A stretch of DNA of 64,000 nucleotides, taken from the NCBI GenBank assembly GCA_028753945.1, contig JAPNXP010000011.1:682001-746000 (forward strand). Reading direction: 5' to 3'. The stretch comes from Hexactinellida sp. DTS-2022 (taxonomy: Eukaryota; Porifera; Hexactinellida). Positions 738 to 61,600 of this stretch are shown here, piece after piece (the stretch's first letter is position 1; each line of letters starts with the position of its first letter). The notes under the pieces were generated by a model. It was not told where the DNA came from and searched no databases. It saw only the letters and a program-made list of their open reading frames with translations. The position numbers and the translations under genes were made by a program.

Positions 738-751
738 CACAGTAAAAAAAA

Positions 752-7890: not shown

Positions 7891-7960
7891 CAGTAATAAC
7901 TAACCAAGGCAGTAAGATTAGAACTGGGCCACTATACTATAGTATAGTCGGCACAGTAAT

Positions 7961-9235: not shown

Positions 9236-9239
9236 GTAT

Positions 9240-14285: not shown

Positions 14286-14840
14286 TTCGTTTTGGTAAAA
14301 ACTTTCTTCATACAAGTCAGTATATACTTGGATGAAGCGAATTCTGAACAAAATGCAATAAAACCTAGGCTTATACGATTAATATAGCCAAAGTCGAGCA
14401 CTTGTTTTAGGTCCGTTGATTCATGTTGATTTTGTAAAATCAACATTTGACAAAATCGACATAACATATATTCTTATTAGATTTTTGTAAATGTGAAATC
14501 GAAATAAGCATACTTATTTACCAATAATATATCCCCATTCGATAAGACACGAACATAGCACGAACACGATTTGTGTTAATGTCGTATCGTGTTGGGTTAA
14601 AATTTATTGGGAGTTTTGTTATTAATGTTATACAATAGAACAATACTTAAAGCACAGATAATACTGAAGTCAATATAAATATACTACAAATCAAATAATT
14701 AATACAAAAATTTGCATACCTATTTATAGAAACAATTAATTAAAATTACATCTCAAATAAATATATGTAGAGAAAAATCTAATTTCAACTTGCTTCAGTT
14801 ATTAATGGAGCACAATCTCCCATCATTAAATAGTGCTTTC
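14286..14840. other. Non-coding flank with a TIR-element end and a dispersed repeat
   Basis: No gene seen. At 14432-14466 there is one end of the 'tgtcgattttgtcaaa' palindrome element that is complete at 41879-42434. From about 14470 to 14645 the sequence matches 48605-48785 directly (shared landmark gtgttgggttaaaatttatt), marking a dispersed repeat of about 170 bp. The remainder is AT-rich with nothing recognised. Confidence 0.7.
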
Positions 14841-14847
14841 ATTACAC

Positions 14848-15216
14848 CAGGGTTCCGCAAACTTTCATTTATATCAGGCCAAATAATCTTAAGAAATTTT
14901 TCCTCAGGCCGCAAACAATATCGAGAAACTTTCGAAATTTATAACAAAACTATTAAGTTATTGTAATACTAGAACTATACTAATTTCTAAGCAAAAAGTG
15001 CATAAAGGACTCTAGTCAAAACTGTTTACTAGTACATTAATCAGTGTGTAAATGTGTACAGGCCAGTTAATCAGTGTGTAAATGTGTACAGGCCAGATTA
15101 AAATTAGAAATGTCTCTCAGGCCACAGATGATACAAATTTCCATTGGGCTATCAGGCCACACATAATGTTGTTCCAGGCCGCATGCGGCCTGAAAAATCT
15201 AGTTTGCGGAACCCTG
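14848..15216. mobile_element. hAT-type MITE, 369 bp, with perfect 8-bp TSD
   Basis: Ends are cagggttccgcaaact and agtttgcggaaccctg, an inverted repeat. The flanks are cattacac on both sides (14840-14847 and 15217-15224), an exact 8-bp target duplication as expected for the hAT superfamily. The interior repeats 'caggcc' many times and has a 34-bp tandem duplication around 15030-15096. There is no transposase, so it is non-autonomous. Confidence 0.93.
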
Positions 15217-15291
15217 CATTACACTAAATTAGAATTTGTTGGCCCAAATGTATTTAGAATACAAGTTTGAAATTTAACCAAACACAATAGA

Positions 15292-15665
15292 GGCGGCGTT
15301 TTTCTAAACGAACGAATATTCGAATATTCGTTAGTTTGGGTGACTAAGCATTAAATCATTTTCAAGATACTTTTTTTTTTTAATAGGTTTTTGTTAATTG
15401 TAATACAAATGGTTTGATAATAGTTACAAAGTGTATTAGACACAAGTTAACTAATAATAATCTAGTTTAGGTAGGAATTTATATTTACGATCACTCCAAG
15501 CAAAACAAAAGTCAGGTTGTTGTCCAACAGTAGTCTACGAATATTTGTTTCAATTAAATATTCGTCCATACAAATATTCGTTTCGAAATGAATATTCGTT
15601 TGGAAACGAACGAAAATTCGTTCAATCATTTCGAACGAATATTCGAATATTCGTTTCAGCCCTAC
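15292..15665. mobile_element. Degenerate MITE with GAATATTCG-rich ends
   Basis: The ends carry repeated cgaatattcgaatattcg and finish cgtttcagccct. The better preserved partner at 54894-55265 shows matching inverted termini starting agggctgaaacgaatattc. No target duplication could be defined. Confidence 0.6.
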
Positions 15666-16440
15666 ACATAATACAAATATTTGGTAGTGTAATTCATTTA
15701 AGTATAAGTGTAGATTTACATCTTAGACGAGCGAGCGGAGCGAGAGATAAAAACATTTGGGTGTCCAGGGATCTTGGCCAATGTACAGGGGGAAATGGAG
15801 CCTCGTACAGGGATGGATCATAGGAATGAAATAGGTACAGAGTGTTTTACCAGGTGGAATTGCCCCGGGGCGAGGATTTTACATGCATTGCCCCCTATGG
15901 CCTCCCTATGGCGACGTCCCTGAATTATCTGAAGTACATAAGAGTGTTAGGATAACTCACTTGCTGTGTTAACTAGCAACGTAGTGTATAGATAGTTATG
16001 TCGAATAATTGTTACACTTCAGATTTGTCTATTTATCGATTTATTAGAGAATATTTCTTAGTTCTAATTCAATAAATTATAGCTAATAAACTAACATATT
16101 TATACACTACTATAAATACATCTGCCTACAAGAGCTGGAAGTTGACCAATGGAATATCAGTTACAGAGCGTACTGTATAATCACTCCATAAGCAGATTCC
16201 TATCCTAACTGTGATAGTTGAATCTGATTTAATTAAACTATTTTATTGTTGTTTATTAGTACAGTCAGGTTCTTTTATTATGAACATTCAAGAGGGACCA
16301 AAAATTGTGTTCATAATACTAGTGAGTATATGTGAAGACATTTATTAAATGAGTACAAATTATTATTTGATGTATTAAAAATTTAACACTAATATACAGT
16401 TAAATTTTAATATTTCTAATAATTTTGTTTTCTTTAGACC
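15666..16440. other. Dispersed repeat fragment and non-coding flank
   Basis: 15680-15926 matches pieces of the 799-bp element at 57812-58610 (gagcgag run, gtacaggggg, ccccggggcgagga, and the terminal gcgacgtccctg). It is a truncated copy of that family. From 15930 to 16440 nothing coding is seen. A repeat beginning acagtcaggttctttta at about 16260 recurs near 37556 and, inverted, near 54298. Confidence 0.65.
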
Positions 16441-16450
16441 ATTATTTCAG

Positions 16451-16511
16451 GATCCAAATCGAATGTAGGATCCAGCCAAAATCTCAACATTTAGCGAATT
16501 ATGCAAGATGA
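16451..16511 (+). pseudogene. Terminal-exon remnant, deleted copy of 54001-54107
   Basis: After a good acceptor (ctttagaccattatttcag) the sequence matches the exon at 54001-54107, but about 46 bp in the middle are missing. The deletion joins 'aatcgaat' to 'gtaggatccagcc' and shifts the frame. It belongs to the same unidentified gene and lies about 590 bp upstream of the membrane-protein gene, in the same orientation. Confidence 0.55.
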
Positions 16512-17101
16512 TTAATATTGTGAATCACTAACTTTGTAATACGTAATGCCAATATGATTTGATATGTATACATTTATCACAATACAGTGAATGATTAGTT
16601 TGTTAGTTTGTTTTTCGGCTAATGACAAATAAATCACGTTCTATAGCTACAAAATATTTTATCAAATCATTCTTCAAATCATTTCTTGATGGAGGTAATT
16701 AACTTAATTAACTTAAAGTTAATGTAATATCAAAGGAATAACAACCATGTATACTATGTCACTAGGTAGATACATCAATAGAGCACTGCAAAATTTTTAA
16801 GGAGAGATTAGTTCTCGATTAAAACGTACTAAATAGGCTAATTTAGGGAGATATACGTATATAAATGTATACGTATTCATTGAAACTTACTTTACCAATA
16901 TTCATTTCTAATTATTAATGATAAATTAAATGGACATAAATTAATTTTATGTAATCTCTAATATAAATCTTATAGGGAAATATACATACATTTAAGCATT
17001 AGATAAACCATAAAAGAAACAATATTGCGCTCATATCAAAAGTCTAAACTACTATAAATATTGACTAATATTACTGAAATATATTAATAAACTTGTTTAT
17101 A

Positions 17102-18224
17102 ATGGAATTAAAGATTTCTAACTCTTCGGCGAACCAAGAAATTCATTTTGTTTTGAATGAAATATCATCAATAACCATGTATGTCCTTTTTATCATCTTT
17201 GTTAGTCTTTGTATTCAATCGTTCATTTGGTCAATATATGTATTGAATAGACTTATTCAAGAGAGAAAGCATCTGAAGCACATTAAAGAATTGAAAAATC
17301 ATATACATGAACAAGCATGGTTGACAAAGATAAAAAATAGTAATAGGAAAATAGTAAAAAACAAATCTTTGTTCATAATTTGTAGCATAGAATGGATTTT
17401 TATGTTCGCATTATTATTTAAAGTGCTATACACCATGAGGTTTGCTACTCTAAACATTAACACTCAAATTTCTTCTGACATTTCAAATACCCTGTATGAG
17501 ATTTGTAATAGGGATTTTTTGTTAAGGTGGGGGCTAATTTTTTCGAAACAATGTTAGTTTTACTTCTAACTGTGATTCGAATATTAACAGAATATCTTTG
17601 CGAAATATACAGCTACTATCCAGACACATTATTCAAATTCAATACTGCTTTTAAATACAACGCTGTAGTGTTGATGCTCATCTTTCTTCTTGGCCTAATT
17701 CGAATTACAATTTGTATTCATTGGGTATTGATCTGTATTTGTATGATATATGAATTTGTCTGTTACACAAAACAACGAGAATGTTATGTAATTTGTTATA
17801 CAAACGGTACTTCGATGCTAAAATACATGAATATCAATCTAAATTTGTGGTCCGGTACTACAGATTAGCATATTTGGAATTCAAATTTGGCTTATATATA
17901 CTAGTGACATCATTCTTTATACACATTATAAGCTTTATCCTACTATTTGTATTATGTCTATTTAGAATAATACTCTCTTCTCCAATTAATTGGATTCAAG
18001 TGCTACTTGTGAATGCCGAGATTGTAGACTCAAATTCATTCTCTCGACTTTATCAACAACGATTTACAATATTTAAAGATGTGTGTAATGTTATTGAATT
18101 AGTATGTATATGTATTGCATACTGTCTCCTTGTTGTACCTTATGGTCTTGTGTCTCTCAAGTTTTCTATCTTTGGAGTAAAAGCAAGAGTAGAGAAGAGA
18201 CGAGAAATCCTAATCATGAATTAA
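17102..18224 (+). pseudogene. Multi-pass membrane protein gene, broken by two 1-bp deletions
   Basis: I do not recognise the family. The start ATG at 17102 follows an AT-rich leader. The product begins MELKISNSSAN with an N-glycosylation sequon, followed by about seven hydrophobic stretches: VLFIIFVSLCIQSFIWSIYV, then a long basic loop, LFIICSIEWIFMFALLF, FFETMLVLLLTVI, VVLMLIFLLGLIRITIC, YILVTSFFIHIISFILLF and VIELVCICIAYCLLVV. This resembles a 7-TM receptor-like layout, but no receptor motif is seen. Compared with the sister copy on the minus strand (52256-53427), one T is missing from a T-run near 17515 and one G near 17769, splitting the reading into three frames. The C-terminus ends earlier (ILIMN) than the sister's. 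Assembly error is possible but less likely, since the sister has a different lesion. Confidence 0.7.
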
Positions 18225-18329
18225 TTCGTAAATGATCAATAATAATAATATGTACTATAATAGACGTTTGTTGTATTTATCTCATTAATGTTTTATTTGT
18301 ATTAGTTGAGTGTTAACCTTTATTAATTG

Positions 18330-20090
18330 CTGTCGGCACAGGCTGCGATTTTGGATTTTTTTTCTCCATGTCATCATCACTATGAAGGTGTTTAACTATT
18401 TCAGAAAGGTGTTTCAAAAGGCAACGACCCTTAGTGAGTTGGAAGTTTCGTTTTAGCTCACTTCATTTCAAAGGTATTCTAGTTTCAGTAGAATATAATT
18501 AGTGATGAGTCAGCATTTTTATGTGCGTGTTGGGTAATCACCCAACACCAACCAACCCATTCGCAAAAAAGAATTCTCAAAATTGTAAAAACACATTTTT
18601 TTTACGATGTCGTCATGTCAGGACCCATTTGTAGAGGTGTTACGTGGCATAAGGATCAATTGATAAATTGGAAGTTTGTTTCTATCTTGTATCATCTCTG
18701 AGATTTATGATATTTAATTAATTAGAATAAATAATTATAAATATTATTTATATTATAATATGACCCCAATTTCAAAGTCAACTTACAATTATTAAGTTAA
18801 ATTATTTTGTCATAAATACTTAATTAATTAATTTGTCTATCAAATTTCAATTCCGCACACTCGATAACCCCTAATAAACAAATTGGAAGCATCTATATAA
18901 GTCAAATACTTACGTAATAAATTATAACTAATTACGTCAGTATATTAACAGTGCAAGAGTATTCTTGCAGAAGGAAATATAATCACATAATCTGTCGTTG
19001 TTATGAAATACATAATCTTAGTTTTCAAAGGGAAAATAGAAGGCTACCCGATCTCACAACTCGAATCAATATAATAATAACGAGTTGAAACAATAGAATT
19101 AGATTTAACACCTTCAATTGAACTTAAGTGTTAGTAAACAAAGGAAATTTGTAACTCAATAGTGGCACAAACTAAGGTAAATTTGAGAATTCGTGCACTG
19201 TGAAAAGGTGTAGAATTAAATTCTCTATCGAATGCATATAAATTGAATATTATCGCACTATTTATTGTGCTTTTTCTAACATTAAACAAGTGCAAAAATG
19301 TGTGCAAAATTTTTTAATCAAAAATCGTGACCCCAGGTGCACATCTGCAACCCATGAGACACATATCCAGAAAATTTGGGCTCTTAGTTAATTAAACTCT
19401 GTTCTGTGGAGTGGCTACGAAGAATAATAATAATAATAAAATCCAAAATTGCAGCCTGTGCTGACGCATGTTCCTTTGGTGGCAATATATTTTGTTGGTT
19501 GTTCATTGATAGTGCCTCCAAAGAAACATGCTGTCGGCACAGGCTGCAATTTTTGATTTTTTCGCCATGTCATCATCACTATGAAGGTGTTAAAAAATTT
19601 CAGAGAGGTGTTTCGGAAGACAACCTCCCTTATAGTGGTGGAAGTTTCGCTTTAGCTCACTTAATTTCAGAGTTATTCAAGTTTTCAGTCAGTGTAATAG
19701 GTAATTAGTTATCATTTTTGATAATCGTGATGGGTAATCACCCAAAACCAACCGACCCATTTGAATTATATAATTCACAAAATTGTGAAAACACATTTTT
19801 TTTACGATGTCATCAACACCTCAAGGTGTCAAGACCCATTGGTAGAGGTGTTACGTGGCATAAGGATCAATTGATAAATTGGAATTTTGTTTCTATCTCG
19901 TATAATCTCTGAGATTTATGATATTTAATTAATTAGTATAAATAATTATTAGTTTATTAATAATTTAACACCATTATTATGTACAGCAAATTGAATGAAG
20001 TTCAATTATTTGCAATTATTATTAATTTAAATTTTAATTTCACTATCATATTTGAATTCAGCGCACTCGATAACCCCAAAAATCTAATTG
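18330..20090 (+). repeat. Unit B sequences with one full hairpin, insertion in the left arm
   Basis: Begins with a half hairpin (ctgtcggcacaggctgcgat, 18332-18351), then a full unit B body to about 19420, a full hairpin at 19438-19562, and another partial unit B to about 20070. The right arm of the inverted duplication lacks it, so it either inserted after duplication or was lost there. No gene. Confidence 0.8.
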
Positions 20091-20479
20091 GACCACTGCA
20101 CTATTTCCAATTTTGTCATAGTATTAGGTATTAACACACTTTACAATAGCCATAATCACATAGTACAGTAGATGCCGGATATAATACACCGGTTATAAGA
20201 ACATTACGGTTATAAGAACATTATATACAGTTCTAGACGATGTCCACTGTAGAGAAATCGGAAATTATGGTAAGCATTATTACCCTACGATCGTATATAT
20301 TACCAAAAAGCACTCGAAAATTAGAATATCTTCAAAGTGATTTATAAAACTATGCGGTTATCAAATAATGAGAATATGATACTGAGATGCCCTCCGCACG
20401 CATTCCAAATAGACTTCTTATGAACCTCAAATAGTATAACGATATCATTAACAGTGGCTGTATATATTCCATAACAACT

Positions 20480-22221: not shown

Positions 22222-25200
22222 ATGGGTAATGTTCTGGTTTGTACCTCCAGTGCATACGGGAAGTGTTACTATTGAGTTTATATAGACGAAGATGGCCAAA
22301 TTCCAGGAAGGAATAGCGTCGCAGTGAAACAATTATCGAAAGCATTAATTCGAGACGACATCGAGAAGATAGAAATCTCACTCGCAATTCCAAATCGAAT
22401 AATAGAAAAAGTAAAAGTTAGCGACGAATCGGGTATTAATTTTCTAACTCTGCTGAAGAAATGGGATGGATTTAACCCCATAGAGTTCATGCGAGTAATC
22501 GAGGAAATGGGTGACAGAGAATTGCTATCTCTAGCCAAGAAGATACCTTGGTTAATTGCATCAGTTCCAAAACAGGCCGCAACAGAAACGAAAACAGCTC
22601 ACACGTTCATAGAACTGTTACGTGACGTATCATCCTGTGATTGGGAGATAATCGGACAAAGCATAACAGAGAGTGATAACAGCGAAGAGATAATGAATAG
22701 TTGCATACAAGAGGGAATAATCTCGAAAGATCTAAATGTGCTATGCAAAGCCATGACAGAAATTGAAAGAGTCGATTTAGTACCGAAAATCCTAAATTAC
22801 GCATCTATGTTCGATGGTTTAAGCGAAGAGGAATTCAAAGCTAAACTCTTGTCAGAGATAGAATACGAAGGAGAAGATAACCATTCCCAATGGATGAGGA
22901 AATTGAGAGAGTATATGCTATTACAGCACAATGATGTTAGTGTTTTACTCGACAGCAAAATGGTTGCATTGGAATCTGTGTATACTCCACTCACTGTCAT
23001 TAAACAAAAGACAGATAGAGTCAAACCAGAGGAAGAGACCTCCGTTAAAGAGATAGAATTCCTGAGGAAAATGAAATGCAACCGATCCGTAACCATTGAC
23101 TTCGAATCTCATCTTTCCTATTGTCGCACCGAGAACCCCGAAATCTGGACACTAATTGGGAACCCAGGTTGCGGCAAGACCTTCCTTTGCAAATACGCCG
23201 GGTACCAATACGGGATGGATAATATCGAGAACTTCCAGTACCTACTGTGTATTCCCTGCAGACACACAGAATGGCATGAGATAGAAGTGGCGAGACAGGA
23301 AGACAAAGAGATCAACAAATACATTCACAGATGGCTGCGCATCAGTCTGCCACTTGGCGTGGGATGGGCAGATTCCCTCACACGATACATAATGAGGACA
23401 GGAGGGGAGAGTCTCCTATTGATTATAGACGGACTCGACGAGTTCATTAAGTCAGTCCCATTCGAGACAACTCTACTCTATCTACTCCTACAAAAGAGAA
23501 TTCTACCAAGCGCTACCATCCTACTCACCAGCAGACCGGGGGCTTGGTCAAACGTATTCAGCGAATTCGAGGATGAAATGATAATCAACAGTCACTATCA
23601 GGTGCTAGGGTTCTCGCCTAAGAACCGCGATTCGTATTTTAAGAAAAGAATGAATAATGAATCCAAACTGAAAGACACTAACAAACTATTCGAGAGACAC
23701 GAAGAACTGAACCTCTTGGCCCTGGTCCCTGTCAATGCGAGTCTGTTTAGTGCTCTGTTCAACGACACAGATGATATCCTAGCGCAGACAATTACAGACG
23801 TGTATCAAGCGCTAATAACCTATATGGTTAGGAGACAGCTGCACAGAATGGGACTAAAGAGATACACAAAAGTGTCCCACATCAGTGGCTTCGCCCCAGA
23901 AATAACAGATTGCATAAGTGCCATAGGGCTGGAAGCCTATAAAGGAATTTATGACAGAGAACTCGTATGTCAGGACGATGTGACTCTAAGTTTGGAAGAA
24001 AAGGAATACCAGTGTGAGAGACTGGGATTAATGCAAGAGCACTTCGTGGTGCTTAAGTTTGTGGGTCGAGTTAAGGTGTGGGTATACGCACACTTGACAC
24101 TGCAGGAATTCATGTCCGCAGTATGGCTTAGTTACCAGAAATGGACTCATCAATGTATGATAGTTCGGTACCTGGTGTCCTCTAATGAACTGTTCGTTAT
24201 GTTTAGAATGGTAATTCGATTCGTGTGTGGCATCTTGTGTGACAGATCTATAGCTATGCAATCAATCCTCTGCAAGAAACTAATTCCTTATACGATACAA
24301 AAGATTCCTATGTTCTATCAACTATGGCATGATCGGTATTATCATTATGATGATGATGACATGCTAGATTTATCCAATTGGAAGGAATTCTCACGTATTT
24401 TTATGGAACTATTCTCCATAGTTTTTGAATCAAAACCACTTCCCTCGTTACTTAACTATATTAAGCATATTCTATCTGAACCCTTGCACTTTTACTTTGT
24501 ATGCTGTCTCCCAAAATGAGTGGTACACATTCATACTGTCATTACCACACCTGCCACATATTCAAATATTACTCATTAATGTGGATTATATCTCCACTGA
24601 ACAGTTTCGCACTCTCATATCACGAATTGACCAATGCCATCTCAACTATCTTGCTTTGAGATTTCATAACAAAGACACTTCTACAATCCTATCTTATACC
24701 AGCATTATCTCTTCTAAAATGCCAGCTCACATTAAGATTAGTATTGAATTTGATAGGTGTAATGGCATTAAGGATTCTGATATCCTGTTCCCTCCTCCAT
24801 CCAATCAATTCACTGGGTCTCTGGGTATACATAAAACTGTCATATCAATGGATTGCATTACAAACCTGATTAGCAAATTCTCATTCATTCAATACTTATA
24901 TTATAAATTTGGGTATAAACCTCTCTGGTCAGTTCAGGAATTACTCACACATCATAAACCTAGTGAAGGATTGTTCTTAGTGGATTCTTATCAATCTTCA
25001 TTTGATATGCCCTCTAACATATTTTTACAGCTATCTTCGCTACAAGAAATACACTTGAATACAGAAGATGCCTACTCAGTCCTACCTTATCTACAGTCCT
25101 CCTGTTACCTAACATATCTAGCTATAAAGCCAACTGGTGACCCACCTCATCATGAATCTTATGGAGATATTCTTATACAGACAGTCATTAGGAACAGTAA

Positions 25201-41878: not shown

Positions 41879-42434
41879 TGTCGATTTTGTCAAATGTTGA
41901 TTTTACAAAATCAACATGTCGATTTTACAAATTCGACACCAATCAACATTCTCTGTGAAGGTGTGGAATGAGGGTAAAAGCCATGCTTAACTGAGTAAGC
42001 ATGTAGCACATAACAAGATAAAAGAACCAGGCTTTAAACAAAGTGTATTGTATGGTTATTTGAAACGCTCGGGCCATTTTAAGTGTGGGTTTACAATTTC
42101 AACAAATAAAATATGTCGATTTTATAAATTCAACATAATTTATTAGTTGATTTTGTAAAATCGACATTCTGAAATGTCGATTTTACAAAATCAACATTTC
42201 AGATTATCGATTTTACAACATCAACTAATAAAATATGTTGATCTTACAAAATCGACATTCTGAAAATATTTGATTTTACAAAATCAACATATTTTATTGT
42301 TTGGTTTTGTAAAATCGATTTGTCAAATGTTGATTTTATAAAATCAACATGTTGATTTTACAAAATAAACTATTTTTACAAATTAAAGTTCAGTTTGGAT
42401 GTCGATTTTGTAAAACAACATTTGACAAAATCGA
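41879..42434. repeat. Array of near-palindromes, TGTCGATTTTG family
   Basis: At least ten repeats of a 22-24-bp near-palindrome of the type attttacaaaatcaacat in both orientations. They are bounded by tgtcgattttgtcaaatgtt at the left and its reverse complement (catttgacaaaatcgacat) at the right. The matching outer ends suggest one TIR element whose interior amplified. A solo end occurs at 14432-14466. Confidence 0.85.
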
Positions 42435-43121
42435 CATAAGATATACGTATATGTACAGTAGATGTCGGACACACCGGTTATAAGAACATATCGGATATAT
42501 GCACACTATGTTGGAAAACGGTTGCCATATACCCTGTATATTTGATGTCGTTTATAAGCACATTAAGTGCAGTTCCCGACGATGTGCTTATAACCGGCAA
42601 CCACAGTAGTAAGAAACTGGGCGGTATCCAAATGTGATTTTTGGCATATAGTGGTAACTTTTGGCACCCGCCAACAAGTTGAGGTTTCCACTCAAATTTT
42701 ATCACACCTCGACAATTATGATGTCATCGTCACATTTCGAGAACCTTGAAAATTCACTTAATCGTACATAATTCGCGCCCTCTAAGAGATAGAAATATGA
42801 AAATTTAATAGTACATGACATTAATGATGCTATGAAATATGGAAGAACAGACTTTATGAGTTTGCAATAAGAACAATAGTGGTTCATTGAATTATGTATA
42901 ACAGCACAAGTTGCATATAATAAAGTAGTTTGTAAATGAAAAAGTAGAATAGAGGACATAATCAGGAAATTTACAACCAATTATTTCCATTGATTTTGTG
43001 TAGAGTTTCTTATTTCACCTCCGATTCGCTGACAACAAAACAGTATATAATATATGTACATATATACAGTTACAAACAATCACACCAAATTATATTATTC
43101 AAAAGTAAAACTATGCAATGA
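42435..43121. other. Gene-free 3' flank of the fusion gene
   Basis: Holds a small element with ends acagtagatgtcggaca and cggcaaccacagtag (42454-42609, related to sequences near 20188 and 51330), the inverted partner of 38745-38965 at 42630-42835, and then AT-rich 3' flank. No coding region. Confidence 0.65.
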
Positions 43122-46100
43122 TTAATAAATTTCATTACACAAGATACACTGCTTTAGATTGATCCATTCCCAAATACTGCATTTTGTTTCACTCCTTCCA
43201 AACTGTTCAATAAGTTCATGATTAACAGTTAGTAGTGAAAAATTGTTCTTATTTGTTTTCCCATTAAATTCGATGTTACAGTCTATTGTTTCTGTAATTT
43301 GTAGTACATTGACCTTTCCAATATTTCCATTGGCCCAATTACTCCACAATTTTTGAGAATCAATGAAATAGTTTTTAGTTAAATTGGAACTTGTAATAAT
43401 ATCGTTTAAGAGATATTTTATGATTGGATGTTTTTCTTCAAATTTCATAAAGGTAAGAAAATCTGCTGTATTGTTTTCGACAAAAGAAAATGAATTCCAA
43501 GCAATAGCTTCAATTGGCAATAAAAGAAAAGTGTCTGTGTTCAAATAGATACCTCCCGATTGGTACAGCACCAAGAGTTGCACGATATATTTCTCAAACA
43601 GAGGCCAATTGTCCAATTTTTCGATTCCCTGAATTATAGCAGAATCAATTTCTATTACGATTGGCGACATCTTAAACATTTTCTTCAACTCATAATTTAA
43701 CACTTCTATCCTATAACCCGACTCAGTGTACACTTGAAAATCAGTTTGATACAGTGTGTTTGTATGGATAATAATTCTTGACAGTGGGTGATGGTAAAAC
43801 ACTGATTCAATACTTCTTCGATTTCTCAAATTGGTTCGACAATGTGATAGAGAAGGTGAATTATCAAAAATAAAAGAATTTCTTGAAGAAGTAAAAACGA
43901 AATGGAACACAAGTTCATTGTCCTGAACTCTTAGTGATGGAAAGGGTAACAAACCAAATTTCCTTGCTGCATCATAAAGTGGTTGTTTCTGACGTATGAT
44001 GTTCCAATTTACAGTTCTAACTTTCATTAACAGATTGATATTCGGATTATGTGGAGGAGAAGAATAGTCAAAATTAAGAAAAAAATCTGTTATTTGTTCC
44101 TTAGAGAAAGAATAAGTATTTACTGTATGGAAATAATCTATCAATCCCACTGTACGTTCCGACATTGATATATCTGAGCCCCCGCCTCCTGGCATTGCTT
44201 TGGAGTTTATAAATAATACAGGAATACCCATTGCAGCAGCTGGAAGTGCAGCATGTATTCTTTGTGTAATTACTAATTTACATTGAGAAAAAGTCTCAAT
44301 CCTTTCAAAAGCACTCTTAAATAGCTTGAGTCGAAATTTCACGATTCCTAATGGAGCATCCTGGTCAAAAGTAATTGCAGTTTCTCTTACTTTAGTTGGA
44401 ATCAAATTAAGAAACTCTTCTCTCACATCAACTAAATAAATAGATTTGGGGTTCTCTCTGATACCTGTTGGGCTCCTGGTCAACAGTGTAAGACAGCTAG
44501 AGAAAAATGTTTCCACGCCAATAGATTTTAACCATTTGTAAGTGTCCATATCTCTACTACCTATGATGGACTTTGAATTTTTAACAAACTCAAGTATATT
44601 GTTACTGTCCCTCACACTCGAGGCGAAGTGCATCCCTAGTGCAATTAGATCGATGTTTTCCGGGGGTGGGAAATTAATCCTACTATCTCCCCACCAAGCA
44701 TTAAGGAACACAATTGTTGGCTCTCTGAAAGGAGAGATTAATTCCTCTCGGTCCATAAATGTGTCAATATACGGAAGGAATTGAATCCCGGGGAAACTTT
44801 GTACTTCGTCACCGAGGTTTGCTGTACCTGCATACTCCGATCTTGTGTCATAACAAAGTGCACCAAAGCGACATAGAAATGTTTTCGCCAACTCTGCATC
44901 CAAAACTTGTGCCTCAATGACGTACTTATTAATACACATAATCTTGCCTCCACATGACTCAGTAATAGAATCCATTAACACCTTTCGATAATTGTATTCT
45001 ACTGGCCAATTGCTTGAGTCATCGTTTCCTTCGCTTGGGTAGTTATTGACAAAGTCTGTGGCGAGTTTTTTTAACATCGGATGACCTATAGTGAAGAAGG
45101 AAATATCAAGAGCGTTCCGAAGGTTTCCATCTAAAGTATCCGTTCCAAATGATATCCATGAGTCATTTTTGGTTACAGGTAGATACTGGCCATTTAGAAG
45201 TGCTAAAGTTGGACTCAGGAATATGCCACCATGGTGCCACAAAAGCGATATTTTAACCACTTCATAGAGATGATTCTCAAAGTTTCTCCCTGTTAGGATC
45301 TTATGGTAAACTTGTCGGGCGAACCAACTCTCAAACGGCGTATTCTGTACAATCTTACTGATGTCTAGGAACCGGACAGAAATCCTTTCATCCGCTGGTA
45401 ACGGTTGGAATGCGTTAATACACTGTGTTGTCCCACAATATACATCAAGATAATTTCCATGGTTCAGGAAAGACTTCACATTGCTTACAACATCTTCAGG
45501 GATTGGATCATTATGCAACCACACAGTTAATATCTTATCATTACTTCTCATTATATGTGTATCTTTACTCTCACTAGCTTGCATTGCGATGCCTCTTATA
45601 AACAGTAAACATATGACAATTGAAAAACCAATTAGGATTACTGTAACAATGCCATTTTTTAGCATTCTCAATTTAAATATTTTAGTCTTTATATTCTTAT
45701 TTTTGTACATTTGGAATAGGACTATGCCAATGAAGAAAGTCCAGAGACCAAATAACATCGCCCTGGATAGGGGCGTTGAGAAATAGATTATGTTTAAGAT
45801 TACTACAAATATCCTTTTTGAAAGATTTAGAATTGAATGAGTTAGTGGAGTAACGTTTTCTAGCACGCTAATTGACGCCAAGTTGTATATAAAATGGAAC
45901 AGTGAAGAAGTAATTCCATATTGAATATTGCTATTTGAAAGTGTTTGGATGATTATCAATTTAAACAGAAAAGCAGGTAGTATAAACAAAGCACTTATCA
46001 AGGATATGAATGTATATTTCTGTAAGGGACTCTCCCAAGATACTCTCTTCAGAAATATATTCCTATAAGGGAAAGCAATATCCGAAGTTAGAGCTGCAAC

Positions 46101-46613
46101 AACGCCCCAAACATTGAAACTAGAATCCCATACAACAAAAGATGAAGCACCAACACAAATCATTAGGACAGAGATAAGAATCTCTATTGTAAACACACCT
46201 CTAGTTCTGTAGAGAAAGATAGTTAATACAAATGTAACAAGTGGTTCAATTCCTTTCAAAATCTGTACCGAACTGGAACTTACGAAAGAGTAGGCTGCGT
46301 TGGTTGCAAGGTTTCCGACTGCATTACCTAGTGACGCGAAAAATATATCCAATTTTGGAATCTTTGTTTCGGGATAGAGAGATTTTCTTTTGAACAGTAT
46401 TAACCAGGTAAACCCAATAACACCTCCCAACACATGTTGTAACAGGGTTAATTCTAACCACCTGAAATCCAAGAAAGCATTCGATACTTCCCAAACATCG
46501 GAAGTTGTTTCTTTTCCTCTATTCATAACATTCTTTGAGTATATGGTCGCGATTGTGTTTGCTATCCACCAGAAAGCTACTGCTGCGCCAATATAAATTA
46601 CTCTGTGGGCCAT
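43122..46613 (-). CDS. Fusion: TPT-type transporter, GT32-like, pyruvyltransferase, GT32-like
   Basis: One uninterrupted 1163-codon frame. Residues 1-305: ten-helix triose-phosphate/PEP translocator-like transporter, with LKGIEPLVTF (119-128), a basic RNIFLKR (184-190) and THSILNLSKR (258-267), matching the Lys and Lys-Arg positions that bind the substrate phosphate in plastid translocators. Residues 321-342: an eleventh hydrophobic helix (VTVILIGFSIVICLLFI) preceded by basic residues, which would put the rest in the lumen. Residues 360-530: GT32-like, LWHHGGIFLSPTLALL (458-473), with the usual DxD replaced by SPT. Residues 597-830: polysaccharide pyruvyltransferase signatures NLGDEVQSFPGIQFLP, IGSRDMDTYKWLKSIGV, SSCLTLLT and LVITQRIHAALPAAAMGIPV. 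Residues 900-1163: second GT32-like, YQSGGIYLNTDTFLLLP (1017-1033). Lumenal sequons (for example NLT 1077) agree. Inferred job: Golgi PEP import plus pyruvylation of a glycan. Confidence 0.88.
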   Translation of the reverse strand: MAHRVIYIGAAVAFWWIANTIATIYSKNVMNRGKETTSDVWEVSNAFLDFRWLELTLLQHVLGGVIGFTWLILFKRKSLYPETKIPKLDIFFASLGNAVGNLATNAAYSFVSSSSVQILKGIEPLVTFVLTIFLYRTRGVFTIEILISVLMICVGASSFVVWDSSFNVWGVVAALTSDIAFPYRNIFLKRVSWESPLQKYTFISLISALFILPAFLFKLIIIQTLSNSNIQYGITSSLFHFIYNLASISVLENVTPLTHSILNLSKRIFVVILNIIYFSTPLSRAMLFGLWTFFIGIVLFQMYKNKNIKTKIFKLRMLKNGIVTVILIGFSIVICLLFIRGIAMQASESKDTHIMRSNDKILTVWLHNDPIPEDVVSNVKSFLNHGNYLDVYCGTTQCINAFQPLPADERISVRFLDISKIVQNTPFESWFARQVYHKILTGRNFENHLYEVVKISLLWHHGGIFLSPTLALLNGQYLPVTKNDSWISFGTDTLDGNLRNALDISFFTIGHPMLKKLATDFVNNYPSEGNDDSSNWPVEYNYRKVLMDSITESCGGKIMCINKYVIEAQVLDAELAKTFLCRFGALCYDTRSEYAGTANLGDEVQSFPGIQFLPYIDTFMDREELISPFREPTIVFLNAWWGDSRINFPPPENIDLIALGMHFASSVRDSNNILEFVKNSKSIIGSRDMDTYKWLKSIGVETFFSSCLTLLTRSPTGIRENPKSIYLVDVREEFLNLIPTKVRETAITFDQDAPLGIVKFRLKLFKSAFERIETFSQCKLVITQRIHAALPAAAMGIPVLFINSKAMPGGGGSDISMSERTVGLIDYFHTVNTYSFSKEQITDFFLNFDYSSPPHNPNINLLMKVRTVNWNIIRQKQPLYDAARKFGLLPFPSLRVQDNELVFHFVFTSSRNSFIFDNSPSLSHCRTNLRNRRSIESVFYHHPLSRIIIHTNTLYQTDFQVYTESGYRIEVLNYELKKMFKMSPIVIEIDSAIIQGIEKLDNWPLFEKYIVQLLVLYQSGGIYLNTDTFLLLPIEAIAWNSFSFVENNTADFLTFMKFEEKHPIIKYLLNDIITSSNLTKNYFIDSQKLWSNWANGNIGKVNVLQITETIDCNIEFNGKTNKNNFSLLTVNHELIEQFGRSETKCSIWEWINLKQCILCNEIY

Positions 46614-46860
46614 ATCCCAGTCATACGATGATAACTCAGGCTAGATTCAGAAATTGTAAATCCTAAGCGATTCCAAATTGCTATAGTATAAAATATATTG
46701 ATGGCTATATTGAAAACTAAGTAATTGAAAAAGAAAAAACTGAATACTTACATTCTGTACACAATGAAAAGTATAACAGGAAATAAGAAATCTAACTGAG
46801 TATTTGAACTAACCTAGTGTTAATTAATTAAGCTATTTGTCTATATTATAAAAACTCGAT
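46614..46860 (-). promoter_or_regulatory. 5' region of the fusion gene with possible 5'-UTR intron
   Basis: On the minus strand, a donor-like aat/gtaagt lies at about 46754 and an acceptor-like tttctgaatctag ends at about 46643. A short non-coding first exon followed by a 5'-UTR intron of about 110 bp would place the ATG (46613) near the start of exon 2. This would fit an ordinary eukaryotic gene rather than a bacterial contaminant. No TATA or other motif is claimed. Confidence 0.35.
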
Positions 46861-47435
46861 TGTCGTTTGTTTGTGTGTGTTTGTCCAGATTGTATTGAAG
46901 TAATGGGGGAATAGAAACCGCACTTAAAATTGAGATAGAGACTAAGTTCCAAATGTTATAATGGGTAAACAAGTATGCTGATTTCGAATTTGAAATTTAC
47001 AAATTTATGTTATTAATATTTGTTGTTGTTGTTTACACAAATATATGTAGGTAAACAAATTTTCGAAAATTCAAATCAACCTAGAAGATATCTTTCAACG
47101 AGTAATATAGGTAAACAAGTACGTATGTTGAACTCGGATTTCGCATTTATAAATTTCTAACATGAATATGTATTATTATAGTTAACACAAATAGGTAAAC
47201 AAATTAATGAAATTCAAAATCAACCCAGAAGTTAGCTTTAAACGGGAATTATAAGTAAACAAATTATAAGTATGGAAATTGGTTTAAAGGATGTATATAA
47301 CTATGTCAAATATTTACTAACTATGTAATCAATTGTTAATTAATGAGTAAGGCCGCATAGCGGCCGTTAAACTGAGGTGCGTAGCACCGATCTGTCACAA
47401 AGCGACCGAGATCGAAGGGCTCATACTATATACAC
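46850..47435. repeat. Dispersed repeat, partner at about 49745-50660
   Basis: Shared landmarks are gtttgtttgt, tggggaaatagaaac-type sequence, cttccaaatgttataat and gaccgagatcg, in the same order and orientation. Relatives of the 'ccaaatgttata' block are also near 21680 and 57250. The partner copy carries two later insertions. No ORF. Confidence 0.7.
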
Positions 47436-52139: not shown

Positions 52140-52255
52140 TTTGACCCCAAGTAATCCGGTTGTTTTAATTTAAAGTTACAGTTAGTAGTTATTTATCTAA
52201 TAATAAAGGTTAACTAACAACTAATACAAATAAAACAATAATGAGATAAATACAA

Positions 52256-53427
52256 CTAACATCTATTATAGTACATATTATTATTATTGATCATTTTAAG
52301 AATTAATTCATGATTAGGATAATCTCGGCTCTTCTCTACTCTTGCTTTTACTCCAAAGATACAAAACTTGAGAGACACAAGACCATAAGGTACAACAAGT
52401 AGACAGTATGCAATACATATACATACTAATTCAATAACATTACACACATCTTTAAATATTGTAAATCGTTGTTGATAAAGTCGAGAGAATGAATTTGAGT
52501 CTACAATCTCGGCATTCAGAAGTAGCACTTTAATCCAATTATTTGGAGAAGAGAGTATTATTCCAAATAGACAAAATACAAATAGTAGGATAAAGCTTAT
52601 AATGTGTATAAAGAATGATGTCACTAGTATATATGAGCCAAATTTGAATTCCAAATATGCTAATCTGTAGTACCGGACCACAAATTTAGGTTGATATTCA
52701 TGTATTTTAGCATCGAAGTACCGTTTGTATAACAAGTTACATAACATTCTCGTTGCTTTTGTGTAACAGACAAATTCATATATAATATAAATACAGATCA
52801 ATACCCATTGAATACAAATTGTAATTCGAATTAGGCCAAGAAGAAAGATGAGCATCAACACTACAGCATTGTATTTAAAAACAGTATTGAATTTGAATAA
52901 TGTGTCTGGATAGTAGCTGTATTCTTCGCAAAGATATTCTGTTAATAATCGGATCACAGTTAGAAGTAATACTAACATTGTTTCGAAAAAATAGCAGCCA
53001 ACTTTAACAAAAAAATCCCCATTACAAATCTCATACAGGGTATTTGAAATGTCAAAATAAATTTGAGTGTTAATGTTTAGAGTAGCAAACCTCATGTGTA
53101 TAGCACTTTAAATAATAATGCGAACATAAAAATCCATTCTATGCTACAAATTATGAACAAAAATTTGTTTTTTACTATTTTCCTGTTACTATTTTTTATC
53201 TTGGTCAACCATGCTTGTTCATGTATATAATTTTTCAATTCATTAATGTACTTCAGATGCTTTCTCTCTTGGATAAGTCTATTCAATACATATATTGACC
53301 AAATGAACGATTGAATACAAAGACTAACAAAGATGATAAAAAGGACATACATGGTTATTGATGATATTTCATTCAAAACAAAATGAATTTCTTGGTTCGC
53401 CGAAGAGTTAGAAATCTTTAATTCCAT
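52256..53427 (-). pseudogene. Multi-pass membrane protein gene, sister copy, one 1-bp deletion
   Basis: Same gene as 17102-18224, inverted. The start is ATG ending at 53427 (MELKISNSS). It differs by having lost one C near 53095 (acacatgagg against acaccatgagg in the left copy), which ends the first frame after LLFKVLYT. The rest is then open for 279 codons from MRFATLNINTQ to the stop at 52256. It keeps the T-run and the G that the left copy lost. Without the single deletion it would encode about 390 residues with about seven membrane segments. Closely spaced initiation at the internal ATG could in principle still give a shorter product. Family unknown. Confidence 0.7.
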
Positions 53428-54000
53428 TATAAACAAGTTTATTTATATTTCAGTAATGCTAGTCAATATTTATAGTAGTTTAGACTTTTGATATGAGCGC
53501 AATATTGTTTCTTTTATGGTTTATCTAATGCTTAAAGGTATATATATTTCCCTATAAGATTTCTATTAGAGATTACATAAAATTAATTTATATCCATTTA
53601 ATTTATTATTAATAATTAGAAATGAATATTGGTAAAGTAAGTTTCAATGAATACGTATATACGTATATACATTTATATACGTATATCTCCCTAAATTAGC
53701 CTATTTAGGACGTTTTAATCGAGAACCTAATCTCTCCTTATAAATTTTGCAGTGCTCTATTGATGTATCTACCTAGTGACATAGTATACGTACATGGTTG
53801 TTATTCCTTTGATATTACATTAACATTTTAAGTTAATTAAGTTAATTACCTCCATCAAGAAATGATTTGAAGAATGATTTGATAAAATATTTTGTAGCTA
53901 TAGAACGTGAGGCTTTATTTGTCATTGTATTATGATAAATGTATACATATCAAATCATATTGGCATTACGTATTACAAAGTTTGTGATTCACAATATTAA
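53428..54000. other. Intergenic leader of the membrane-protein gene
   Basis: Inverted match to 16512-17101. AT-rich, no coding capacity seen. It separates the terminal exon at 54001-54107 from the membrane-protein start, both on the minus strand. Confidence 0.6.
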
Positions 54001-54107
54001 TCATCTTGCATAATTCGCTAAATGTTGAGATTTTGGCTGGATCCTACTCGGAGCACCAACATACGTATAGTTGACATTCCGAAAGCCAGGTCGATTCAAT
54101 TTGGATC
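54001..54107 (-). CDS. Terminal exon of an unidentified gene
   Basis: On the minus strand a strong acceptor (ctttagaccattatttcag) is followed by an open frame of about 35 codons ending in TGA at 54001-54003. It reads SKLNRPGFRNVNYTYVG, APSRIQPKSQHLANYAR, stop. The amino-acid composition and the clean acceptor support a real exon. The left-arm copy (16451-16511) has lost 46 bp from its middle. Upstream exons were not found within the arm, so only the 3' end was duplicated or the rest lies across distant introns. Family not recognised. Confidence 0.5.
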
Positions 54108-54109
54108 CT

Positions 54110-54630
54110 GAAATAATGGTCTAAAGAAAACAAAATTATTAGAAATATTAAAATTTAACTGTATATTAGGTTAAATTTTGAATACACATCAAATAATAAT
54201 TTGTACTCATTTAATAAATGTCTTCACATATACTCACTAGTATTATGAACACAATTTTTGGTCCCTCTTGAATGTTCATAATAAAAGAACCTGACTGTAC
54301 TAATAAACAACAATAAAATGTTTAATTAAATCAGATTCAACTATCACAGTTAGGATAGGAATCTGCTTTGGAGTCATTATACAGTACGCTCTGTAACTGA
54401 TATTCCATTGGTCAACTTCCAGCTCTTGTAGGCAGATGTATTTATAGTAGTGTATAAATATGTTAGTTAATTAGCTATAATTTATTGAATTGGGACTAAG
54501 AAATATCCTCAAATAAATCGACAAATAGACAAATCTGAAGTGTAACAATTATCGACATAACTATTTACACGCTACGTTGCTAGTTAACACAGCAAGTGAG
54601 TTATCCTAACACTCTTATGTACTTCAGATA
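54110..54630. other. Non-coding, inverted match to the left arm
   Basis: Contains the inverted 'aagaacctgactgta' repeat near 54286-54300 and otherwise AT-rich sequence; the counterpart is 15930-16440. No gene. Confidence 0.55.
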
Positions 54631-54635
54631 ATTCA

Positions 54636-55900
54636 GGGACGTCGCCATGGGGAGGCCATAGGGGGGTGCATTGTAAAAATCCTCGCCCCGGGGCAATTCC
54701 ACCCTAGTAAACACTTTGTACCTATTTCATTCCTATGTTCCATCCCTGTACGAGGCTCCATTTCCCCCCTGTACATTGGCCAAGATCCCTGACACCCAAA
54801 TGTTTTTATCTCTCGCTCCGCTCGCTCGTCTAAGATGTAAATCTACACTTATACTTAAATGAATTACACTACCAAATCTTTGTATTATGTGTAGGGCTGA
54901 AACGAATATTCATTCGTTTCCAAACGAATATTCATTTCGAAACGAATATTTTTTGGACGAATATTAAATTGAAACGGATATTCATTGACTACTGTTGGAC
55001 AACAACCCTACTTTTGTTTTGCTTGGAGTGATCGTAAATATAAATTCCTACCTAAACTAGATTATTATTAGTTAACTTGTGCCTAATACACTTTGTAACT
55101 ATTATCAAACGATTTGTAATACTATTAACAAAAACCTATTTTTAAATGTATTTTGTATCTTGAAAATGATTTAATGCTTAGTCATCCAAACGAACGAATA
55201 TTCGAATATTCGTTCGTTTAGAAAAAGGTTCGTTCGTTACATTTCGAATATTCGTTTCAGCCCTAAAATTTATGTGTGATGTTATTAAGTCTTATTCAGT
55301 TTGACAAAAATCAAAATGATCACTTAGGAAAGCAGAAAATATTGAATTATATACGTACAGAGAAGCCCTGTACGCTTGAATAGGGTGTTAATTTACACAA
55401 AACAAACATCTCCATTTACGGTTTAGGAATTTTTAGGTATTATTCGACAGACAATCAATAATTTTTCCAAACTAGTTTCATATACAAATTTATTACATCC
55501 CTGTACGCCTGGACAGAACAACCAAAATAGTTGAAGTCCCTGTACGATGGCAGGAATGGTCTGTAGTAATCTAGTTGCCTCTTATAGGATATTCCTATTT
55601 ATTTTGGCATTTTGGTACTAGCTTCTAATCAACTGTTCTACAAATTCAATACACCTTTTACTTTAGACCTGTTACCTGTCAAAATAGACTTTTACTGTAA
55701 TTTTAGCTAGTAGTTTTTAACAGAATTTTGCAACCCTGGGTAATACTACAGCTTAATGTTTTGTTATTTGAAGGCTACATTTAATACTTTGCAGAACATT
55801 AAATTAGAAAGGTTCAATCTTATCGGCTAGTTTTTGGTAACGTCAACTACTAGATCTAACACCAATAGAATGTCCCCCCCCCCATGGTTACGTAACCAAA
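54636..55900. mobile_element. Large MITE-like element interrupted by a nested MITE
   Basis: Begins cagggacgtcgccatgg, contains the gagcgagcgg block (in inverse) and a block near 55800-55870 (tttttggtaacgtcaact) that matches, inverted, the left part of the complete 799-bp element 57812-58610. It is therefore a member of that family, extended by the nested MITE at 54894-55265 and other sequence. The right end is uncertain. Confidence 0.6.
54894..55265. mobile_element. MITE with GAATATTCG-rich inverted ends, 372 bp
   Basis: Ends agggctgaaacgaatattc and gaatattcgtttcagccct form an exact inverted repeat of about 19 bp. Internal sub-repeats of cgaatattcgttcgttt. The counterpart at 15292-15665 has eroded ends. 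Confidence 0.85.
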
Positions 55901-58627: not shown

Positions 58628-61600
58628 ATGGGTAAATTAATGTTCTGGTTTGTACCTCCAGTGCATAAGGGAAGTGTTACTATTGAGTTTATATAGACGA
58701 GATGGCCAAATTCCAGGAAGGATTAGCGTCGCAGTAAAACAATTATCGAAAGCATTAACTCGAGACGACATCGAGAAGATAGAAATCTCACTCGCAATTC
58801 CAAACCAAATAATAGAAAAAGTAAAAGTTAGCGAAGAATCGGGTATTAATTTTCTAACTCTGCTGAAGAAATGGGATGGATTTGACCCCATAGAGTTCAT
58901 GCGAGTAATCGAGGAAATGGGTGACAGAGAATTGCTATCTCTAGCCAAAAAGATACCTTGGTTAAATGCATCAGTTCCAAAACAGGCCGCAACAGAAACG
59001 AAAACAGCTCACACGTTCATAGAACTGTTACGTGACGTATCATCCTGTGATTGGGAAATAATCGGACAAACCATAACGGAGAGTGATAACAGCGAAGAGA
59101 TAATGAATAGTTGCATACAAGAGGGAATAATCTCGAAAGATCTAAATGTGATATGCAAAGCCATGGCAGCAATTGAAAGAGTCGATTTAATCCAGAAAAT
59201 CCCAAACTACGCATCTATGTTCGAAGGTTTAAGCTAAGAGGAATTCAAAGCTAAACTCTTGTCATAGATAGAATACGAAGGAGAAGATAACCATTCCCAA
59301 TGGATGAGGAAACTGAGAGAGGATATGCAATTACAGCACAAAGATGTTAGCGTTATACTTGACAGAGAAATGGTTGCATTGAAATCCGTGTAACTCCACT
59401 CACTGTCATTAAACAACAGACATATATATAATTAAACCAGAAGAAGAGACCTCCGTTAAGGAGATTGAATTCCAGAGGAAAATGAACAAAAAACAAAGGA
59501 GGCATGGAACGAAATTGTCTAAAAATACACAAAAGAACTGGAATAGTTGACTTCGAGAACTTCCAGTATCTCCTGTGCATTCCTTGCAGACACACATAAT
59601 GGCATGAGATAGGTGGCTAGACAAGATGACAAAGAAATCAACAAATTCATTCGCAGATGGCTGCCATCAGTCTGCCACTCGGTGTGGGATGGGCAGAGTC
59701 CCTGACACGATACATAATTAGCACAGGAGGGGAGAGTCTCCTCTTGATCATGGACGGACTTTACGAGTACGAAGTGCTCTTGCATTAATCTCAGTCTCTC
59801 ACACAGGTTATACTTTTCAGCCAAACTGAGAATGACATCGTCCTCACAGACGAGTTCTCTGTCGTAAATTCCCTTATAGGCTTCCTGTCCTATGAAAGTA
59901 ATGCAATCTTTTAATTCTGGGGCGAAGCCACTGATGTGGGACACTTTTGTGCATCTCTTTAGTCGGAACAGCTGTCTCCTAACCATATAGGTTATTAACT
60001 CTTCATACACATCTGTTTCTGTCTGAGCTAGGCTATCTTATGTTTCGTTGAATAGAGCACTGAACAGACTTGCATTGACAGGTACCAGGGCCAAGTGGTT
60101 CAACTCTTCGTGTCTCTGGAATAGTTTGTTAGTGTTTTCCAATTTGGATTCAATATTCATTCTTTTTTTGAAATACGCATCTTGGTTGTCAGGCGAGAAT
60201 CCTAGCATCTGATAGTGACTGTTGATTTTCATTTCATTCTTGAATTGGGTGATTATGTTAGACCAAGCTCTTGGTCTGCTGTTCATTAACTCAGTCCCAT
60301 TCTAGTCCATTCTACTCTATCTCCTCCTGCAAAAGAGAATTAACCTAGCTCTACAATTCTATTTACGTGGGTCGAGTTAAGGTGTGGTTATAGGCACACT
60401 TAACACTTCAACCTCTAATGAACTGTTTGTTATGTTTAGAATGGTAATTCGCTTCGTGTGTGGCATCTTGTGTGAGAGATCTATAGCTATGTAATCAATC
60501 CTCTGCAAGAAGCTAATTCCTTATACGACTCCAAAGATATCTATGCTCTACCAACTCGGATTTGGATTATGAAATGAGATGGAAAAGAAGCAAACCAGTT
60601 CCAGTAAATTGATTAATATATTTATCTAATTGGTTAGAGTTTTCACGCATACTCTTTGAGCTGATTTCAACAATATTCGAATCAAAACCAGTTCCCTCAC
60701 TAAGCAATGTTAACTGTTTTAAGCATATTCTACCTGAACCCCTGCACTTTTACTTTGTATGCTGTCTCTCAAAATGAGTGGTACACATTCCTACTGTCAT
60801 TACCACATCTGCCACATAGTCAAATAAAATTCATTGATGTGCGTTTTATCTCCACTGAACTGTTCCGCACTCTCATATCACGAATAGACCAATGCTGTCT
60901 CGACTACCTTGCTTTGACATTTCGCTACAAAGACACTTCTACAATCCAAATTATACCAGCATTATCTCTTCTAATATGTCAGCTCACATTAAGATTAGTG
61001 TTACATTAGATCAATGTACTGGCATTAAGGAATCTGATATCCTATTCCCTCCTCCAGCCAATCAATTCACTGGGTCATTGAGTATATATCTGACTGACAT
61101 ATCAAAGGAATGTATTATAAACCTGATTAGCAAATTTTAATCCATTCAATACTTATATTATAACATGAGTAGTGATTGGTCAGTGCATGAACTACTAACA
61201 CATCATAAACATAGTATCGGACTGTCCTTATTGGAATTACCTATAATTATATATATTATGCCTCCTGACATATTTTCACAGCTATCTTCGCTACAAGAGA
61301 TACACCTGAATACACAAGATCCCTACTCAGTCCTACCTCATCTCAGATCTTCTGTAAGTAACCTAACATATCTATCTACAGTATATGTTATGGGCAATAT
61401 GCGAAACTGGACTGGACAAAATGCCCAATTTCGCATATTGCCCATAACATATTGATCCAACTGGTATCCTACCTGATCATAGATCCTATGGAGATATTCT
61501 CATACATATATTAATCAATAGGAACAGTAATACTCTGAAAGTATTAGAGTTTATACAGTATAGTAATTAACACCTGGGATAGTATACTAGCTCCTATACA

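Follow-up and report, generated by a model that had tools for sequence, protein, structure and literature searches.

A Predicted Protein of a Hexactinellid Genome Assembly Joins a TPT-Family Transporter to a Pyruvyltransferase Domain and Two Diverged GT32-Like Domains

Introduction

Can a single animal polypeptide both import the donor of a pyruvylation reaction and transfer its pyruvate to a sugar? The question is raised by an open frame of 1163 codons in a stretch of 64,000 nucleotides (hereafter the window, to which all coordinates refer unless prefixed by C1 or C3) from the assembly recorded as Hexactinellida sp. DTS-2022 (GCA_028753945.1, contig JAPNXP010000011.1, positions 682,001 to 746,000). 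An earlier note, made from the letters alone, had described in this frame, in order, a TPT-type transporter, an extra membrane helix, a GT32-like domain, a polysaccharide pyruvyltransferase domain and a second GT32-like domain, and had proposed a self-contained Golgi pyruvylation machine. The frame is real; it occupies 43122..46613 on the minus strand, which had been left unspecified, with the ATG at 46613 and the stop codon ending at 43122, and encodes 1163 amino acids (aa).

Judging from the domain content and the conserved residues, we propose with moderate confidence that the product is a Golgi-type phosphoenolpyruvate (PEP)/phosphate antiporter tethered by the extra helix to its own luminal ketal-pyruvyltransferase, which is flanked by two diverged GT32 domains. 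Of the machine envisaged earlier, the single frame, the TPT domain, the helix and the pyruvyltransferase are all borne out, whereas PEP can be regarded only as a possible cargo of the transporter.

The Fused Frame and Its Second Copy

A Pfam scan of the whole protein recovered, in order, TPT (PF03151, residues 8–300, 2.2e-26), PS_pyruv_trans (PF04230, residues 674–804, 5.6e-10) and Gly_transf_sug (PF04488, residues 932–1038, 2.6e-9), so that both families whose absence had been named beforehand as a possible refutation, PS_pyruv_trans and TPT, are found. The longest stop-free frames in 20 shuffled versions of the window span 109–157 codons, compared to the 1163 observed, on which ground a chance frame is rejected, and the coding sequence appears to consist of one exon.

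Furthermore, a second full-length copy, encoding a protein 96% identical to the first, is located at C3:669194-672682, ~56 kb from the window copy. Both copies sit within a duplicated block of ~4.9 kb (42097..46975, not assigned to a strand), which shares 95.9% identity with its counterpart beyond the window, C3:668159-673017. The two coding sequences have equal length and zero indels, and differ by 33 synonymous and 43 nonsynonymous changes, distributed 25/10/41 over codon positions 1/2/3; the proportions of synonymous (pS) and nonsynonymous (pN) differences are 0.044 and 0.016, respectively, giving a pN/pS ratio of 0.357 (Fisher p 1.4e-5). The ratio is 0.38 in the transporter, 0.20 in the first GT32-like domain, 0.45 in the pyruvyltransferase, 0.42 in the second GT32-like domain and 0.25 in the linker and helix (4 changes only), and residues 841–895 show zero differences. 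Substitutions and gap columns amount to 2.2% and 0 in the coding sequence, 2.3% and 55 in the 3' flank, and 6.6% and 27 in the 5' flank. Given that the 3' flank substitutions are close to the coding ones, selection was read without the flank substitution rate, from synonymous versus nonsynonymous changes and indels only; by this comparison, the fused frame is under purifying selection. A chance frame or an assembly join is unlikely given a second copy that is 96% identical, equally long and indel-free, with a pN/pS of 0.36, and a pseudogene is likewise disfavored, both copies being intact at this ratio.

Upstream of the ATG, intron-like signals are kept in both copies, namely a donor (GTAAGT) and an acceptor (CTAG, in ..AATTTCTGAATCTAG) that would delimit an intron at 46641..46751 on the minus strand. 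Joined across this putative intron, the frame has no Met ahead of the next upstream stop (judged by eye), and accordingly, an intron in the 5' untranslated region is possible.

Six-frame profile searches of the whole genome (112 Mb in 18 contigs, exons not joined) yielded two PS_pyruv_trans matches, both of them the fusion copies, five TPT matches and eight GT32 matches, with two in the fusion in each of the latter cases.

The Pyruvyltransferase Domain

The pyruvyltransferase domain spans residues ~591–840 (44094..44843, minus strand). Its match to PF04230 exceeds the curated cut-off (40–45 bits versus 25.3; 2.6e-11 when the domain is scanned alone), and the three residues R687, R785 and H787, the same in both copies, are the counterparts of R217, R337 and H339 of Pvg1p from fission yeast and of R148, R306 and H308 of CsaB, all reported as PEP contacts (PMC10435577). 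R785 and H787 were aligned directly to the Pvg1p structure (5ax7), and R687 was placed via the family alignment only. The predicted pyruvyltransferase thus has conserved donor-site residues. A profile built from a 13-row alignment (A10), all 13 rows of which match PF04230, ranks Pvg1p (5ax7) first among the PDB sequences (E = 0.0061), in an alignment restricted to the C-terminal motif; a profile with fewer rows (A9) reaches Pvg1p at E = 0.053.

The Transporter and the Added Helix

The N-terminal assignment to the TPT family (residues 8–300; 45714..46592, minus strand) likewise stands, with the profile covered from position 3 to 290 of 291 at 93–96 bits versus the cut-off of 30. The only PDB sequence matching this region at E<=1 is the Galdieria translocator GsGPT (5y78, 7.8e-13). 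In the 5y78 alignment, the pocket positions are N,T,K,F,Y,K,R in the fused transporter versus H,T,K,F,Y,K,R in GsGPT: T104, K120, Y243, K266 and R267 are kept, F181 is at the position of Phe263, and N101 is at the position of His185. The Lys, Tyr and Lys-Arg of the phosphate pocket of plastid phosphate translocators are all present (K120, Y243, K266, R267), so that, in this alignment, most of that pocket is retained. The other close TPT protein of the genome (L014) has the pocket S,S,K,F,Q,K,R, although it matches Pfam TPT better overall (248 bits versus 96 for the fused transporter).

Plant PEP/phosphate translocators (PPTs) share with the fused protein the Asn that replaces His, but they lack its Phe, in place of which they have a further Asn. 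For the Arabidopsis triose phosphate translocator AtTPT, six pocket residues are listed (His184, Lys203, Phe262, Tyr338, Lys359 and Arg360), of which Phe262 is believed to hinder the entry of PEP (PMC6981301). Phe at this position is common in diatom TPT2 proteins, together with Gln and Asn at a further two sites (PMC6981301), and the same study gives a PEP exchange by NspTPT2 of 23.1% of the phosphate exchange versus a background of 6.9%, albeit with a large standard deviation (0.7, SD 0.6). By analogy with these diatom proteins, the Phe rule against PEP does not seem to be strict. Given that the fused transporter has exchanged His for Asn while keeping the putative PEP-barring Phe, PEP is a possible substrate, although the Phe does not point to it.

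The extra helix described earlier (approximately residues 319–342; 45588..45659, minus strand) is recovered as the highest hydropathy peak of the protein (2.99, centered at residue 330), and the loop that precedes it (residues 303–318) contains 6 K/R and 0 D/E. In diatoms, the C-terminus of TPT1, a protein of the outermost plastid membrane, faces the cytosol (PMC6981301), suggesting that a Golgi TPT would also end in the cytosol. A lysine-rich loop followed by a strongly hydrophobic helix fits a chain that crosses from there into the lumen.

Proposed Mechanism

What we infer about the placement of the protein in the Golgi, its topology, its transport of PEP, its acceptor and the coupling would combine as follows. 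The TPT domain would exchange phosphate of the lumen for an incoming three-carbon phosphate, most probably PEP, and the added helix would take the polypeptide from the cytosol to the lumen. There, the pyruvyltransferase would attach the pyruvate of PEP in ketal linkage to a sugar (probably galactose), releasing phosphate. The GT32 domains would position or recognize the acceptor glycan, or else build the underlying sugar bond by means of a non-standard site. PEP-dependent ketal transfer liberates phosphate, and because this phosphate is the counter-substrate of the presumed antiporter, import would drive transfer and transfer would drive import: with the transporter and the transferase working jointly, phosphate would move outward and PEP inward. 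Such a vectorial machine, importing PEP against the phosphate from its own tethered pyruvyltransferase, would close the cycle of donor supply and transfer within one animal protein. We advance this further step tentatively and would put its chances somewhat short of even.

Contrary Evidence and Alternative Explanations

Several observations speak against the antiporter–pyruvyltransferase reading. In the pyruvyltransferase domain, the fourth PEP contact (K361 of Pvg1p) lacks a secure counterpart, the candidate K805 being Asn in the second copy; a single-sequence search of the PDB with this domain found no relative (best 1.2); and the score against the NCBIfam CsaB model (TIGR03609) is far below the cut-off (20.2 bits versus 213.1), so that the domain is not CsaB by that model. 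The structure predicted for the domain alone is weak (pLDDT 61, pTM 0.61); with this weak model, Foldseek returned nothing at E<=0.001, Pvg1p, whose fold is GT-B-like, ranking third at E = 0.047, and in a VIA second look with the same model Pvg1p was absent among the 50 matches listed. In the transporter, the cut-off of the NCBIfam tpt model (TIGR00817) is missed (82–84 bits versus 317.9), so that it is not a plastid translocator by that model, and the bulky Phe181 occupies the Phe262 position, unlike the non-bulky residue expected of PEP-transporting TPTs. Finally, at the DXD position of the GT32-like domains, both copies have SPT in the first domain and NTD in the second, and a normal DXD is absent. 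The prediction for the luminal part as a whole (pLDDT 41) was unusable. L014 is also under the TIGR00817 cut-off (172.6 bits versus 317.9).

The alternative that fares best concerns the GT32-like domains and modifies the antiporter–pyruvyltransferase reading rather than competing with it: the pyruvyltransferase alone would be catalytic, and both GT32 domains would be pseudo-enzymes with an acceptor-binding or structural role. We consider this slightly favored. The second domain (residues ~891–1163; 43125..43943, minus strand) is above the PF04488 threshold when scanned apart (4e-6, 27.9 bits versus the cut-off of 23), whereas the first (residues ~346–595; 44829..45578, minus strand), which resembles the second in a single BLASTP comparison (8e-6), is sub-threshold (E = 0.0071, 17.5 bits). 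All eight members of an alignment including both domains of both copies (A4) match PF04488 at E<=1. Profile-profile comparisons of alignments of the first domain (GT32a), the second domain (GT32b), bacterial sequences and the GT32 proteins of this genome were uninformative (best probability 17%, with 2–4 sequences per side), and the distant relatives listed by a PDB profile search with a GT32 alignment were glycosyltransferases that act as bacterial effectors or toxins. The earlier claim of two GT32-like domains thus holds more firmly for the second than for the first, and because neither has a normal DXD (S467-P468-T469 and N1025-T1026-D1027, respectively), calling them two glycosyltransferases is doubtful. 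They may not transfer sugars at all and instead bind the acceptor. Consistent with the pseudo-enzyme interpretation, four of the six other GT32 loci of the genome (L006–L009) read DTD at the motif. Moreover, the pN/pS of the first domain is the lowest of the four main domains, so that this domain seems to be kept for some role; taken together, the ratios of 0.20 and 0.42 suggest that both domains are maintained. Conversely, the second domain retains the last Asp of the DXD, and two other members in the genome lack the full motif (L010, DSN; L011, a 92-aa fragment, HTD), as do the bacterial relatives (DAT), indicating that the motif varies in this group. Three of the DTD loci (L007, L008 and L009) form a GT32 cluster at C1:8556775-8603128, in which L007 and L008 have identical 300-aa frames on opposite strands.

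Under the next alternative, which appears unlikely, the frame encodes one translated protein whose transporter carries triose phosphate, phosphate or some further phosphorylated compound instead of PEP, and the pyruvyltransferase obtains its PEP otherwise. The retained Phe and the low score against the tpt model are compatible with this, as is the reliance of yeast Pvg1p on Pet1p and Pet2p. However, that the two parts are fused in itself implies a common chemistry, the pocket departs from that of AtTPT by the His to Asn change, and a diatom TPT of the Phe group still moved PEP, with the large error given above.

The third alternative, a recent acquisition from a bacterium or protist, or a contaminant, without function in the host, is quite improbable. 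In its favor, the coding sequence is apparently intronless, and the closest pyruvyltransferase relatives found in the collections searched (prokaryote and viral) are bacterial. In the prokaryote genome scan, 10 of the 131 pattern stretches were confirmed (10 loci); six of these (L024–L028, L032) entered alignments A3 and A9, and five (L024, L025, L026, L028 and L032) entered A10, from which L027 was dropped as a near-duplicate of L028. All alignments exclude L029 (matching at residues 132–224 only) and L030, L031 and L033 (short, <=50% identity over 35 residues). The A3 profile has matches in 20 of the 395 Bacteroidota genomes sampled, in the pyruvyltransferase half in 8 and in the glycosyltransferase (GT) half only in 12; six of the 15 loci listed from this sample were used (L044–L049). 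In the 13-row tree, the two copies are placed weakly beside L044–L049 (76/82) on a long branch (3.76), a grouping that dates nothing because the tree lacks other eukaryotes and that makes an older transfer of the pyruvyltransferase possible. A recent arrival is hard to reconcile with the location of both copies inside a 5.1-Mb contig, the conserved intron-like 5' signals, the purifying selection between the copies, and the fact that the bacterial relatives examined lack an in-frame transporter and are 25–31% identical over the domain. A viral origin was considered separately and ruled against: relatives were absent from the viral contigs searched, where 2 and 50 pattern stretches arose and none was confirmed, and, with residues 346–1163 as the query, from phages. 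The least probable explanation, by a small margin of judgment, is that two or more genes, or a gene with an in-frame intron, were misread as one frame, against which stand the stop-free run far exceeding those of the shuffled windows, the equal length and lack of indels of copies whose flanks are gapped, and the identity of residues 841–895.

Comparison With Known Systems

Returning to the reading as a tethered antiporter and pyruvyltransferase, a close functional parallel is fission yeast, in which donor import is combined with a luminal ketal-pyruvyltransferase that shares the R, R, H contacts (PMC10435577, PMC4872226). There, unlike in the fused protein, the components are separate proteins, and Pvg1p is a type II single-helix protein. 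The earlier comparison, which assumed one Golgi PEP transporter, was right about the separation and needs adjusting in number, given that Pvg1p is described as reliant on two PEP transporters, Pet1p and Pet2p. Furthermore, in several bacterial proteins a pyruvyltransferase belonging to the same subfamily is immediately preceded by a GT32-type domain. The protein of Sphingobium sp. V4 (P0001) has Caps_synth (2.6e-46) directly ahead of PS_pyruv_trans (8.4e-11), and in frames of 569–576 aa from Eremiobacterota (L026), Parvibaculum (L028) and S. naphthae (L032), the GT half aligns with P0001, by which it was assigned rather than by Pfam, and the pyruvyltransferase half with the window domain. Unlike the fused protein, these four have no transporter, anchor or second GT32 in frame and have Leu at the R337 position, where the eight other bacterial rows have Arg (6), Lys (1) or Ala (1, Helicobacter); at the first GT32-like motif, they have DAT (DAS in L032) versus SPT. 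Stand-alone pyruvyltransferases are found in Chitinophaga (L024, 301 aa) and other Bacteroidota (L044–L049, 324–350 aa). Thus, the novelty claimed for the fusion is confined to the transporter and anchor joined to a GT32-type/pyruvyltransferase pair; the pair itself already exists in bacteria. We know of no GT32 domains in Pvg1p.

The likeness to plastid phosphate translocators (GsGPT 5y78, AtTPT, PPT) lies in the profile family and most phosphate-pocket residues; the fused protein differs by Asn in place of His, the transferase fusion and the presumed Golgi location, and to our knowledge no plastid translocator is fused to a transferase. Plastid translocators are described as swapping phosphorylated compounds for phosphate (PMC6981301). 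The glyconectin of Microciona prolifera, which is involved in sponge cell adhesion, contains 4,6-pyruvylated galactose, in line with the earlier note (PMC6801904, PMC7828597); the parallel here is a glycan, not an enzyme, and the available portions of these two papers name no pyruvyltransferase for it. PMC6994554 refers to pvg1 and to pyruvylation in sponges and sea hares, and its available portion gives no animal enzyme. In giant-virus glycogene clusters (Mimivirus L143, Megavirus mg538), a pyruvyl transferase lies alongside (multi-domain) glycosyltransferase genes, but as a separate, adjoining gene (PMC9614988); the available portion of PMC5082852 contains nothing about pyruvyl transfer.

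Genomic Context and Host

Two frames near the fusion, both on the plus strand, look like innate-immunity genes: one of 747 codons (22276–24516), with a NACHT domain (2.5e-17), and another (58641–59234) that starts similarly and matches a death-effector profile below threshold (0.0035). A collagen profile has 135 matches in the genome, although it also matches 3 of the 14 control genomes, all bacteria, and a Wnt profile, with zero matches in the genome and zero in the controls, is uninformative. The collagen matches and the NACHT gene fit an animal host, so that the gene probably comes from an animal, plausibly a sponge. Eight Calx-beta matches, six of them over the family cut-off, fall within ~210 kb at C1:13660813-13868644, a cluster which we take to be possibly one of aggregation-factor-like genes.

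Elsewhere in the window, 15299–18325 and 52201–55226 are inverted copies of each other (3.1 kb, 91.8% identity) with membrane-protein-like frames, one of which has a sub-threshold connexin match (0.00037). The region between the two fusion copies (744–20092 in the window and C3:676000-688000) is dense in direct and inverted repeats of ~0.7–3.8 kb.

Implications

Pyruvylated galactose occurs in sponge adhesion glycans and in sea-hare glycolipids (PMC6801904, PMC7828597, PMC6994554), and literature searches gave, among the matches listed, no sponge or animal pyruvyltransferase and no fusion of this kind. The gene described here is a concrete candidate for an animal enzyme behind this modification; a role in adhesion glycans is suggested by analogy only. 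If the proposal is correct, this would be, as far as the searches show, the first animal pyruvyltransferase to be identified, and would provide a genetic handle on pyruvylated cell-recognition glycans. More generally, a natural fusion of a donor transporter with the enzyme that it would supply bears on the question of whether Golgi transporters and transferases act as complexes.

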